Part shown: positions 11,339 to 19,358 of the stretch, piece after piece | Position numbering within the stretch: position 1 is the first letter of the stretch | Layout: each line of letters opens with the position of its first letter | Assembly (NCBI GenBank): GCA_017630405.1 | Contig: JAGBVH010000019.1 | Coordinates: forward strand, 1 to 53,284 | DNA: 53,284 bases | Reading direction: 5' to 3' | From: Alphaproteobacteria bacterium | GTDB lineage: Bacteria; Pseudomonadota; Alphaproteobacteria; Rs-D84 | Made by a program: the position numbers and the translations under genes | The notes under the pieces: generated by a model | The model's input: the letters and a program-made list of their open reading frames with translations, nothing else | What the model was told of the DNA's origin: nothing | The model's database searches: none

Positions 11339-11920
11339 TTATTTAACTTTAGTTTTTATGCCATGATACAGCTGGTTAAAGTGCTGGCGGCATACAGATT
11401 TATAATTGCTGTCCCCAAGGGCCAGTTGCTCGCCCGCCCGCACAACCTTGCCTTGTGCGTCAAATCGCAAATGATGCGTGGCCAGTTCCATACAGCCGTT
11501 AATCTGGCAACTGGATTCGTGCAGGTGCATTTCCGCCCCAACTTCGATAAGGCGGCGTGATGCTGGAAACATTTCTTCATTGCTGTCCACAACCAGCCCA
11601 TAGCACATAACCGTTTTGTCCAGCACATCCGCACAGTGTACCAGTTTGTCGATATCGCTTGGCGCAAAGAATTGAACTTCGTCAACCAATATCACCTTGG
11701 TTTCTGGTTTAGGTGTATAGTTGGTCAGGTTTGGCATCGCCATTGCCGGTGTTTCTATCCCAAGGCGTGATTTCACATTGTCGTTACCAAATCGCGTATC
11801 AAATGCTGGCTTGATAACTTCGATATCAATACCATTTTGTCTGTAATTATACGCGTTCACAATCAATAATGCGGATTTAGAGCTGCTCATCGCCCCGTAA
11901 TGAAAATGTAATGTCGCCAT
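11339..11920 (-). CDS. tdk: Thymidine kinase
   Basis: Phosphorylates thymidine with ATP for salvage into dTTP. The 193-residue protein is of the type II family, with the P-loop as GAMSSSKSA (about residues 9-17; the usual form is GPMFSGKT), the Walker B-like DEVQFF (about 80-85) and a C-terminal zinc ribbon with CQINGC near 138 and a later Cys near 181. AAAGGAA lies 7 nt before the start. The Gly of the P-loop GK is replaced by Ser (SSK), a known variant in many bacterial TKs. Monocistronic. Confidence 0.93.
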   Translation of the reverse strand: MATLHFHYGAMSSSKSALLIVNAYNYRQNGIDIEVIKPAFDTRFGNDNVKSRLGIETPAMAMPNLTNYTPKPETKVILVDEVQFFAPSDIDKLVHCADVLDKTVMCYGLVVDSNEEMFPASRRLIEVGAEMHLHESSCQINGCMELATHHLRFDAQGKVVRAGEQLALGDSNYKSVCRQHFNQLYHGIKTKVK

Positions 11921-16359: not shown

Positions 16360-18396
16360 ATGTCAGAAACACAAAATGAAATAAAAATTCAGATTACACC
16401 GACACTTACGACACATTTGGTCGCTGTTCAGAAGCGCAGTGGTGAAACGGTTCCTTTTGATGCCAAGAAGATTTATGAGGCCATCAAAAAGGCTGTTGCG
16501 GTCACCACTGAAATATCTGATGTCGAGGTTGTCAAAGTAACACAAGATGTATTAAAGCGTTTGGATGAAAAGTTTTCGGACAAAACCCCAACAGTTGAAA
16601 ATATTCAGGATACTGTTATTCAAACATTGATGGACAATCGCGCATACAAAACAGCCGAGGCTTATATAATTTATCGCCAAAAGCGCACAGAAATTCGCGA
16701 ATCAATGGTTGATGCGGTCGAAGTTATCGAAGGTTATGTTGGTGGTTCAAACTGGCGCATCAAAGAAAATGCAAATGTTGGCTATTCCATCGGTGGCCTT
16801 ATTTTGCGTACCAGCGAACGCGTGACCGCGGAATATTGGTTGAACCTGTATCCGCGGGCGGTTGCTGAAGCGCACAAGACTGCTGCAATCCATGTTCATG
16901 ACCTTGGGTGGCTGACTGGATATTGCGCGGGTTGGTCGCTGCGTGAATTGTTGTACGAAGGATTTAACGGTGTTAATGGTTATCTGCACTGTGAACCTGC
17001 CAAGCATATGGCAACCGCTATTTCGCATATGGTGAATTTCCTTGGCACACTTCAGAATGAATTTGCAGGGGCCCAGGCCTTCTCATCTGTGGATACATAT
17101 CTGGCGCCATATGTTCGCGTTGATAACTTATCCTATGCGGATGTTAAAAATGCGATGCAGACATTGATATTTAACTGTGCTGTACCATGTCGTTGGGGCA
17201 CCCAGACACCATTTATTAACTTCACATTCGACTGGACATGCCCAGAAGATTTGAAGTCCCAGCATCCATTTATCGGCAGAAAACAAGTTGATTTCACATA
17301 TGGTGATCTGCAGGCGGAAATGGATTTGATTAACAAAGCATTTTTGGAAGTTATGACCGAAGGTGATGCATTGGGTCGTCCGTTTACATTCCCAATTCCA
17401 ACCTATAACATCACACCGGATTTCCCATGGAATCATCCAAATGTAAAGCCATTGTTTGATTTGGCTGCTAAATACGGTATTCCAAACTTCCAGAACTTTT
17501 TGAATTCTGACTTGAATCCAACGGATGTTCGTTCTATGTGCTGTCGTTTGCGCTTGGATGTTCGTGAATTGTTAAAGCGTGGTGGTGGTCTGTTTGGTTC
17601 CGCAGAAAAGACAGGTTCAATTGGTGTTGTCACAATTAACTTGGCTCGTTTGGGCTATATCCATCGTGGCAACCGCGAAGGTCTGTTTGCTGAACTGAAA
17701 CGCTTGCTGGATTTGGGACGCGACAGTTTGGAAATCAAGCGCGACATTATATCCAAGAATATGGAGCGTGGTCTGTATCCATTTACAAAACGCTATCTGG
17801 GGAACTGGAATCATCACTTCTCTACGATTGGTGTAAATGGTGCAAACGAAATGGTTCGCAACTTTACTGGTGATAAAGAAAATATTGCAACACCAATGGG
17901 TAAAAAATTGGTTTTGGATGTTATGGACTTTATCCGTGAAAACTTGGCGACTTTCCAGGAACAAACGGGCAATCTGTATAATCTGGAAGCGACCCCAGCC
18001 GAAGGTTGTTCATATCGCTTTGCCAAAACAGACGTCAAGAACTTCCCTGATATTATCACAGCGGGAACCAAGGACGCACCATACTATACAAATTCAACAC
18101 AACTGCCTGTGAACTTTACAGACGACCCATTTGTCGCGCTGGAACATCAGGAAGAATTACAACGTAAATATACCGGTGGTACGATGTTGCACCTGTACAT
18201 GGGTGAACCAGTATCCAGCGGTGATGCCGCCCAGAAAATTGTGCGCACGATATTTGAAAATTACAAAGTTCCATACATGACTTTGACACCAACATTTTCA
18301 ATCTGTCCAAAGCATGGTTATCTGCCAGGCAAGCACGAGTTTTGTCCGAAATGCGATGCAGAAAATGCCGCAAATCAGAACAATAACGAACAATAA
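16360..18396 (+). CDS. nrdD: Anaerobic ribonucleoside-triphosphate reductase, main chain lacking the glycyl-radical loop
   Basis: Class III reductase that converts NTPs to dNTPs without oxygen. The 678-residue chain begins at the ATG at 16360 with AGTGGAG upstream. It has an N-terminal ATP-cone (VQKRSGETVPFDAKKI, about 25-40), the catalytic barrel with TPFINFTFDWTCP (about 285) and DVRSMCCRLRLD (about 390), and a C-terminal zinc knuckle CPKHGYLPGKHEFCPKC (about 649-665). The canonical family continues at once with CEVYSR-x-x-GY, the loop bearing the glycyl radical. Here the chain instead ends in a short Asn/Gln-rich tail and stops. The missing loop is encoded by the next gene. Confidence 0.95.
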   Translation: MSETQNEIKIQITPTLTTHLVAVQKRSGETVPFDAKKIYEAIKKAVAVTTEISDVEVVKVTQDVLKRLDEKFSDKTPTVENIQDTVIQTLMDNRAYKTAEAYIIYRQKRTEIRESMVDAVEVIEGYVGGSNWRIKENANVGYSIGGLILRTSERVTAEYWLNLYPRAVAEAHKTAAIHVHDLGWLTGYCAGWSLRELLYEGFNGVNGYLHCEPAKHMATAISHMVNFLGTLQNEFAGAQAFSSVDTYLAPYVRVDNLSYADVKNAMQTLIFNCAVPCRWGTQTPFINFTFDWTCPEDLKSQHPFIGRKQVDFTYGDLQAEMDLINKAFLEVMTEGDALGRPFTFPIPTYNITPDFPWNHPNVKPLFDLAAKYGIPNFQNFLNSDLNPTDVRSMCCRLRLDVRELLKRGGGLFGSAEKTGSIGVVTINLARLGYIHRGNREGLFAELKRLLDLGRDSLEIKRDIISKNMERGLYPFTKRYLGNWNHHFSTIGVNGANEMVRNFTGDKENIATPMGKKLVLDVMDFIRENLATFQEQTGNLYNLEATPAEGCSYRFAKTDVKNFPDIITAGTKDAPYYTNSTQLPVNFTDDPFVALEHQEELQRKYTGGTMLHLYMGEPVSSGDAAQKIVRTIFENYKVPYMTLTPTFSICPKHGYLPGKHEFCPKCDAENAANQNNNEQ

Positions 18397-18443
18397 AAAA
18401 TCAGTCATATAAATAAAAAATTAACAACAAGGGAGGAGATATT

Positions 18444-18626
18444 ATGACCACAAACTGCAACAGAACACAATGCGAAGTATTTTCACGTTCAATGGGCTTT
18501 ATCAGACCTGTTTCGAACTTTAACATTGGTAAATATTCTGAGTTCTGTGAACGTAAAACATTTACAGAAGAAAACAGTTTGTCCGCTGGTCAGCGTCACT
18601 CTGACTTGTTAAAGAAAGCGGCATAA
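18444..18626 (+). CDS. Stand-alone glycyl-radical domain of the anaerobic ribonucleotide reductase
   Basis: A 60-residue protein containing CEVFSRSMGFIRPVSNFN, which matches the C-terminal NrdD segment CEVYSR-x-TGYYRPVxxWN residue for residue, and then IGKYSEFCERKTF, matching the family's N-x-GK-x-EF-x-x-RK-x-Y ending. The radical Gly should be residue 18. It starts with MTTNC and has a strong GGGAGGAG ribosome site about 6 nt before the ATG. There are 47 nt with stops between it and nrdD, so this is a true split, not a frameshift. The C-terminal 17 residues go beyond the usual end. It overlaps the logic of GrcA/YfiD, a spare glycyl-radical domain for pyruvate formate-lyase, and should dock on NrdD. 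Confidence 0.88.
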   Translation: MTTNCNRTQCEVFSRSMGFIRPVSNFNIGKYSEFCERKTFTEENSLSAGQRHSDLLKKAA

Positions 18627-18630
18627 TATC

Positions 18631-19332
18631 ATGCGTGATATTCAAATCGGGGGATTGGTTTCGTTCACCACAATCGATTATCCTGGGAAATTGGCCGCTG
18701 TGCTGTTCTTGACGGGTTGTCCTTTGCGATGTGCGTATTGTTCCAATCCCCATTTATTATCCCCGCGTGACGGTGAATATGACCCAGCGCGTGTATTTGA
18801 ATGGCTGCAATCCCGCGTGGGAAAACTGGAAGCGGTCGTATTTTCCGGTGGCGAAGCGTTAATGCAATCCGATGCGGCGATTGACTATATGCGTCGTGTG
18901 CGTGAACTGGGTTTCAAGATCGGACTGCATACAAACGGCTTTTATCCCGAAACCTTAAAGCGTGCAATCGATACGATTGATTGGGTTGGTTTGGATTTCA
19001 AGGCCACGCGCGAAAAATATCCGGATTTGACGGGTCAACATATTGCCTATGACAATATGATACGCAGCCTTGATGTTTGGCTGGAATCAGGCAAAGATTT
19101 TGAAGTGCGCGTCACCTGTGATCCGCGATATATAACTAAATCAGATTTGCTTGAAATTTCGCAATTACTGTCGGGGCGTGGGGTAAAAAATCTGGCGATA
19201 CAGAAATATGTGCCGCATTTCGAACAGGAAAATCAAACCACAACACCGGCCCAACGCGAACAGTTCTTTTGTGATAATGAACTGCGTGACCAGATAAATA
19301 ATCAAATTGAAAACGTGATTTGGCGTGAATAA
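18631..19332 (+). CDS. nrdG: Anaerobic ribonucleotide reductase activating protein (radical SAM)
   Basis: Uses S-adenosylmethionine and a [4Fe-4S] cluster to make the glycyl radical on NrdD. The 233-residue protein has the radical-SAM CxxxCxxC motif as C30-PLR-C34-AY-C37, then FSGGEALMQ (about 71-79; SAM-binding GGE), and a HTNGFYPE region. The ATG at 18631 is 4 nt after the stop of the glycyl-radical gene, suggesting translational coupling. Family members of the longer type (PFL-activase-like NrdG2) match best. It needs a low-potential electron donor, possibly the ferredoxin at 6789. Confidence 0.93.
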   Translation: MRDIQIGGLVSFTTIDYPGKLAAVLFLTGCPLRCAYCSNPHLLSPRDGEYDPARVFEWLQSRVGKLEAVVFSGGEALMQSDAAIDYMRRVRELGFKIGLHTNGFYPETLKRAIDTIDWVGLDFKATREKYPDLTGQHIAYDNMIRSLDVWLESGKDFEVRVTCDPRYITKSDLLEISQLLSGRGVKNLAIQKYVPHFEQENQTTTPAQREQFFCDNELRDQINNQIENVIWRE

Positions 19333-19358
19333 AAAAGGTGCCCATTGGCACCCTTTTT
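19331..19358. terminator. Bidirectional terminator after nrdG
   Basis: GGTGCC (19337-19342) pairs with GGCACC (19347-19352) around loop CATT, flanked by an A run and a T run. Confidence 0.85.

Follow-up and report, generated by a model that had tools for sequence, protein, structure and literature searches.

A class III ribonucleotide reductase encoded as two chains, with a probable small glycyl-radical subunit that also occurs on phages and plasmid-like elements

In the accessible sections of reviews, class III ribonucleotide reductase is presented as NrdD plus NrdG, with the radical located on NrdD. The canonical systems of phage T4, Escherichia coli, Thermotoga maritima and Prevotella copri encode an ATP-cone, a barrel, a zinc ribbon, a glycyl loop and the activase NrdG, and for P. 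copri NrdD the available part of the structural report describes a mobile glycyl radical domain at residues 676-739 (PMC11226230). All of these parts are likewise encoded in the 53,284-nucleotide stretch of an Alphaproteobacteria bacterium analyzed here (contig JAGBVH010000019.1, hereafter the window), and the two chains together cover positions 1-562 of the NRDD profile. Here, however, the glycyl loop is a polypeptide of its own, the small glycyl-radical subunit (GRD), while the zinc ribbon remains on the large chain. We consider it highly probable (roughly 0.9) that the locus encodes a working class III reductase in two pieces, with a trans-acting, replaceable radical subunit that has been copied by mobile elements.

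Small free-standing glycyl-radical proteins, phage-borne ones included, are already known from YfiD/GrcA of E. coli and Y06I of phage T4, which complete a core lacking an intact loop; YfiD and Y06I are the only validated spare parts named in the accessible portion of that work, which allows that others may exist (PMC8683613). The small protein of the window matches NRDD only and is unrelated to that family, meaning that the parallel is one of working and not of descent. Moreover, in this genome it is the sole source of the loop instead of a repair extra, and it would serve a ribonucleotide reductase. Catalytic chains made as two polypeptides are also described for class II NrdJa/NrdJb of Pseudomonas and for the class I alpha chain of phage Aeh1, but these belong to other classes with other cut points, and the available parts of the articles describe no separate small radical chain (PMC4009431, PMC3267527, PMC9669993). 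Among split phage nrdD genes, some are interrupted by introns or endonuclease genes and one is unexplained; the domain cut seen here is not described in the accessible text (PMC3653736). The open-licence literature, as far as its texts were available, yielded no account of a split class III reductase or of the NrdD glycyl domain as a free protein, which does not prove that none exists elsewhere.

The locus comprises three genes in the same direction on the forward strand. The first, nrdD (16,360-18,396, 678 amino acids), encodes the large chain with ATP-cone (residues 23-111, positions 16,426-16,692; PF03477, E 1.5e-21), barrel and zinc ribbon, but without the glycyl loop. Cys394 and Cys395 (CCRL, 17,539-17,544) are the candidate finger-loop radical cysteines; both are invariant in a 27-row NrdD alignment and align with the CCRL of T. 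maritima NrdD (4coi). The zinc ribbon (18,304-18,354) contains four likely ligands identified by sequence and alignment, C649, H652, C662 and C665, all of which lie on NrdD and are invariant in the same 27 rows, the metal binding itself being predicted. Where a canonical NrdD enters the glycyl loop, this chain terminates with a short C-terminal tail, DAENAANQNNNEQ, and a stop codon (18,355-18,396), its end reading ...SICPKHGYLPGKHEFCPKCDAENAANQNNNEQ-stop. After a gap of 47 nt follows the GRD gene (18,444-18,626, 60 amino acids, ATG start), which is conserved in relatives and preceded by a Shine-Dalgarno sequence, AGGGAGGAG (18,430-18,438), rated strong by its duplex energy. The small protein carries the loop RSMGFIRPV, in which alignments point to Gly18 (RSMGFIRP, codon at 18,495-18,497) as the radical glycine; its equivalence to the radical glycine of NrdD is suggested by the Pfam match. 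Only 4 nt past this frame starts nrdG (18,631-19,332), encoding a radical-SAM (S-adenosylmethionine) activase of the NrdG2 type. The first-pass annotation had proposed this layout, and its open reading frames (ORFs), both gaps and the Shine-Dalgarno site hold at every coordinate.

The profile matches assign both chains to one family. Pfam NRDD (PF13597) aligns residues 136-669 of NrdD with profile positions 1-531 of 562 (E 4.6e-169) and residues 4-40 of the small ORF with positions 526-562 (E 5.5e-6). Since the two stretches are complementary, a chance match is very unlikely, and the earlier claim that nrdD ends after its zinc knuckle and leaves the loop to the small ORF is borne out. NCBIfam agrees, with NF006126 on NrdD at 1025 bits (cut-off 548) and NrdG2 (TIGR02495) on the activase at 186 bits (cut-off 131). 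With the glycyl loop absent from the NrdD chain and present on a separate 60-residue ORF, the locus represents a split variant of class III. No glycine-radical domain of the pyruvate formate-lyase type was detected in the small protein at E values up to 1, where only NRDD in Pfam and NrdD models in NCBIfam matched, and a sequence search of solved structures with the small protein alone gave no match. For all seven small proteins scanned, the top match in PHROGs was PHROG 4132 (E 1.3e-8 to 0.0087).

The two pieces adjoin in the order of one ordinary nrdD, as would be expected if a frameshift or stop had divided a single gene by decay or mis-assembly. Against this, NrdD ends just upstream of the GRD gene in all 30 loci compared (29 from the genus, window included, and one from the order), which excludes the read error raised in the first-pass annotation, and the same split layout is common to many other genomes. 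Furthermore, start, ribosome site and stop are present separately for each piece, and the GRD gene is under purifying selection, with proportions of nonsynonymous and synonymous differences (pN and pS) of 0.125 and 0.68 across the 29 congeneric loci. The annotation had also considered a full-length NrdD elsewhere; the whole genome (1.05 Mb, 97.8% complete) contains no NRDD match besides this locus. With the split conserved and no other NRDD match, decay, read error and a second NrdD were all rejected, and we give a broken gene next to no chance. The class I/II reductase family (PF02867) was found in none of 34 congeneric genomes including this one, while the control was positive in 11 of 14. 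The small protein itself was matched in 42 of 59 genomes (this one and relatives), the match in G033 being weak.

The split turned out to be conserved far past the genus. In a sample of the class, a GRD profile matched 28 of 240 genomes, 20 of which are split (19 adjacent, 1 unlinked), and the other eight carry the loop in a long frame of 331-879 amino acids; two genomes (G121, G242) showed second, weaker GRD profile matches. As this profile is biased toward split forms, a neutral count was made with Pfam NRDD, which was found in 57 of 398 Pseudomonadota genomes, 56 of them above the cut-off, and 13 of these 56 are split. The large match ends at profile positions 528-531 in 11 of the 13, which again speaks against a broken gene; in the remaining two the match ran on past the stop. 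The pieces are separated by a stop codon in all 13 except G584, where they lie 9.1 kb apart. Among named genomes, where the best 80 of at least 579 relatives were scanned, 73 are split and two are one-ORF fusions (L167, L176); the remaining five loci, one of which lies at a contig edge, showed no NrdD in the sequence retrieved. Two further candidate fusions, L187 and L201, were ruled out by separate stops and counted as split.

Cultured examples of the split include Rhodopseudomonas faecalis, Devosia sediminis, Thauera linaloolentis and Parasutterella secunda, and a few split metagenome-assembled genomes (MAGs) are labelled Chlamydiota, Verrucomicrobiota or Elusimicrobiota, which may be contamination. 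The arrangement is also found in plasmid records of Cupriavidus necator H16, Paracoccus, Cereibacter and C. metallidurans, and in a Thiothrix plasmid record NrdD itself is broken across two frames. In C. necator H16 the order is WP_011154155 (676 amino acids), WP_011154154 (66 amino acids, named nrdD) and NrdG, so that the small gene is already a separate NCBI entry. The computed mass of the H16 large chain is 76.2 kDa, and the NrdD of the C. necator NrdDG studied by Siedow and colleagues in 1999 is said to be of the same size. What had been seen as a trait of one genome is thus a widespread clade of reductases.

For the NrdD tree, based on regions matching residues 200-668, a set of 146 sequences was reduced to 49. 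After omission of three awkward rows, the 46-row tree separates 36 split and three fused NrdDs from seven canonical fused ones (support 95/91); the 49-row tree recovers the same branch (88/94), with the half-length fusion L083 on the canonical side. By this phylogeny, the split NrdDs appear as one clade with few same-ORF fusions inside, and the fusions L082, L167 and L176 retain the split-type loop signature. L083 (G105) is a fused half sequence at a contig end; its position beside the canonical NrdDs is weakly supported (84/52), and it could be a remnant from before the split. In the approximately unbiased test, a clade of the 36 split NrdDs without the fusions gave p values of 0.026 (49 rows) and 0.052 (46 rows). 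Given this rejection or near-rejection, one split followed by later fusions is the simplest reading, not a proven one. In G584 the loop gene sits with the activase, away from nrdD, and in G155 nrdD and a 124-residue GRD protein are on different contigs; with the genes unlinked, the two chains must meet in trans.

Some individual loci in this part of the data are unusual. In the Sutterella MAG of L158 (G705), the split NrdD is itself interrupted and spans two frames; the genome also has a fused NrdD of 743 residues and a pair of small GRD ORFs whose cores are identical. In Magnetospirillum fulvum (L150:3638-4153), an apparent ATP-cone start is joined directly to a GRD, which looks like a deletion of the intervening NrdD core, and the same genome also has a split copy. 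The conserved Cys that precedes the loop is not strictly kept: in a few GRDs (L065, L081, L217, L282 and L245) it is replaced by Val (VECWTR or VEVWTR) or, in L245, by Thr.

Besides the operons, GRDs were found on phages, prophages and plasmid-like elements. In IMG/VR, where the best 80 of 192 relatives were scanned, 78 loci lacked an NrdD within the retrieved sequence, which for 45 of the 78 reached at least 2 kb to either side. Of 40 whole records, chosen by length from 85 viral loci and, like many virus records, often fragments, 39 match NRDD only at the loop region (profile 526-562) and one also contains an NrdD. Single-linkage clustering of neighbouring genes covered 84 viral loci and prophage L076 (85 in all), and each cluster took its name from one member; GRDs lie beside a tail protein in 30 loci, an integrase in nine, a terminase in four and an amidase/virion protein in seven near-alike contigs. 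In prophage L076 the GRD follows a tail protein and an M15 endolysin, the one endolysin identified, and in the plasmid-like contigs L079 and L080 it lies near mobilisation genes (NikA-like, relaxase) and toprim. Named phage records gave two weak matches, one under an annotated NrdD and one in an 810-residue NrdD-like frame, and a second query against them gave no match.

The relation of these copies to the host operons was followed by sequence. On a GRD tree that is poorly resolved with its 38 columns, the mobile-or-extra label switches at least nine times (starred branches). The signature FSR occurs in 28 of 28 parsed congeneric operons and WTR in 95 of 95 other operons; FSR is also present in four phage loci, nearest to this genus. 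Nine extra GRDs were compared with the operon copy of the same genome and showed core identities of 100, 100, 97, 94, 94, 82, 79, 76 and 67%, from which some look freshly derived from the host copy and others do not. All seven host genomes with extra GRDs that were checked have a split NrdD (G054, G125, G142, G704, G705, G706 and G707), the first three having been searched with the window NrdD only. The radical glycine in every parsed mobile GRD is no evidence, as the search motif demanded it.

Three viral records deserve separate mention. The 810-residue frame in the faecal phage MT835493 (L043:2000-4432) is fused and NrdD-like, with a glutaredoxin-like C-terminal end (CPNCKMAK) and an NrdG-like ORF upstream, the domain calls having been made by eye. 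The single viral record with both NrdD and GRD (L215, IMGVR_UViG_2889436542_000005) has an 818-residue NrdD frame that matches NRDD in two stretches (2-263 and 260-529), suggesting an insertion such as an intein. In L256:2739-5315, a terminase-like phage protein with LAGLIDADG and intein-splicing domains lies near a stand-alone GRD.

With regard to mechanism, NrdD would contribute ATP-cone, zinc ribbon and the barrel that holds the active-site cysteines, and the 60-residue protein the glycyl-radical loop. The small protein would receive its radical at Gly18 from NrdG and then put its loop into the barrel, where Gly18 could reach the finger-loop cysteine as the covalent loop of an ordinary NrdD does. 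With the loop on a strongly translated chain of its own, cleavage by oxygen at the glycine might be made good by a new small protein, without remaking the 678-residue enzyme. The first-pass annotation had already read the locus as a two-piece reductase, a view that the conserved split and the failed attempts at refutation support. The strong GRD ribosome site, the unlinked GRD genes and the stand-alone GRDs of phages and plasmid-like elements are hints that a loop damaged by oxygen may be easier to replace. The duplex energies in the window are -11.3 kcal/mol for GRD, -5.9 for nrdD and -1.9 for nrdG. In all 16 congeneric genomes in which both starts were found (of 20 fetched), the GRD site is stronger than that of nrdD (mean -10.9 versus -6.3 kcal/mol), and it is far above that of nrdG (-10.4 in 28 loci versus -2.8 in 26).

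Where the loop alone is carried by a phage, prophage or plasmid-like element, it would most likely be fed to the split NrdD of the host. An extended version, for which we see about even odds, treats the radical as an exchangeable cartridge throughout the split clade: any chromosomal, phage or plasmid GRD could be charged by NrdG and swapped in, oxygen would destroy the cartridge only, and mobile elements could sustain DNA synthesis after oxygen exposure with about 60 codons in place of an entire reductase. The mobile GRDs may instead be inhibitors, that is, loop mimics that block the host NrdD or sequester NrdG during infection. They are small, have no known activity and lack an accompanying NrdD in 39 of the 40 records, and core identity to the operon copy is low for three extra GRDs of G054 (67-82%) and for that of G706 (76%). 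Nevertheless, the operon-invariant residues R, P, E and R, which lie outside the search motif, are kept in all 77 parsed mobile GRDs, and these genes are under purifying selection (pN 0.13, pS 0.90 over 271 related pairs, with pS near saturation). In addition, the five of nine extra copies with at least 94% core identity are what is expected of a substitute, with the caveat that one of them, L150, lies in the apparent NrdD remnant. On balance, inhibition seems unlikely. A small protein that serves only to repair an NrdD already equipped with a loop, like YfiD with pyruvate formate-lyase, appears quite improbable: the stand-alone GRDs resemble Y06I and YfiD in logic, as far as the available part of the report goes (PMC8683613), but the large chain of this genome lacks a loop and the search turned up no second NrdD, so that here the small protein must be indispensable to the enzyme. 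The split NrdD in seven of seven hosts with extra GRDs also argues against such a role, an additional fused NrdD being seen only in G705.

Several observations weigh against a two-chain enzyme with a replaceable radical subunit. The small ORF scores 25.7 bits, slightly below the Pfam gathering score of 26.2. Outside the genus the GRD ribosome site is weaker, with a mean of -7.5 kcal/mol over 71 named loci, a figure that covers the GRD site only. Three members of the genus (G013, G020 and G023, 91-95% complete) have no NrdD match, and the reductase may be dispensable in some congeneric relatives; with no class I/II match either, these three may live without any ribonucleotide reductase. Structural modelling does favour the two-piece reading, as the predicted fold of one natural fusion can be overlaid on experimental NrdD structures with the glycyl loop included, but its glycyl segment is of moderate confidence (pLDDT, predicted local distance difference test, blocks of 72-74), the model is of a Chlamydiota MAG protein and not of the window's, and its alignment ranges give first and last residues only.

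Should the two-chain form be confirmed, cultured C. necator H16 and Paracoccus would offer a direct test of a glycyl radical supplied in trans and of whether splitting limits oxygen damage, and target recognition by NrdG would become approachable with a 60-residue substrate. A function is suggested for the unnamed phage family PHROG 4132, and phages may affect the deoxyribonucleotide (dNTP) supply of the host by bringing in just one small subunit. Split reductases would probably be called truncated by annotation that looks for the glycyl motif on NrdD.

Finally, a terminator-like hairpin lies directly 3' of nrdG (19,337-19,352, forward strand) and tentatively marks the operon end, for which the five terminator-like sites found versus 3.4 expected are weak evidence. 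On the reverse strand of the window, the ORF at 11,339-11,920 looks thymidine kinase-like by eye and is a possible dNTP salvage route near the reductase.
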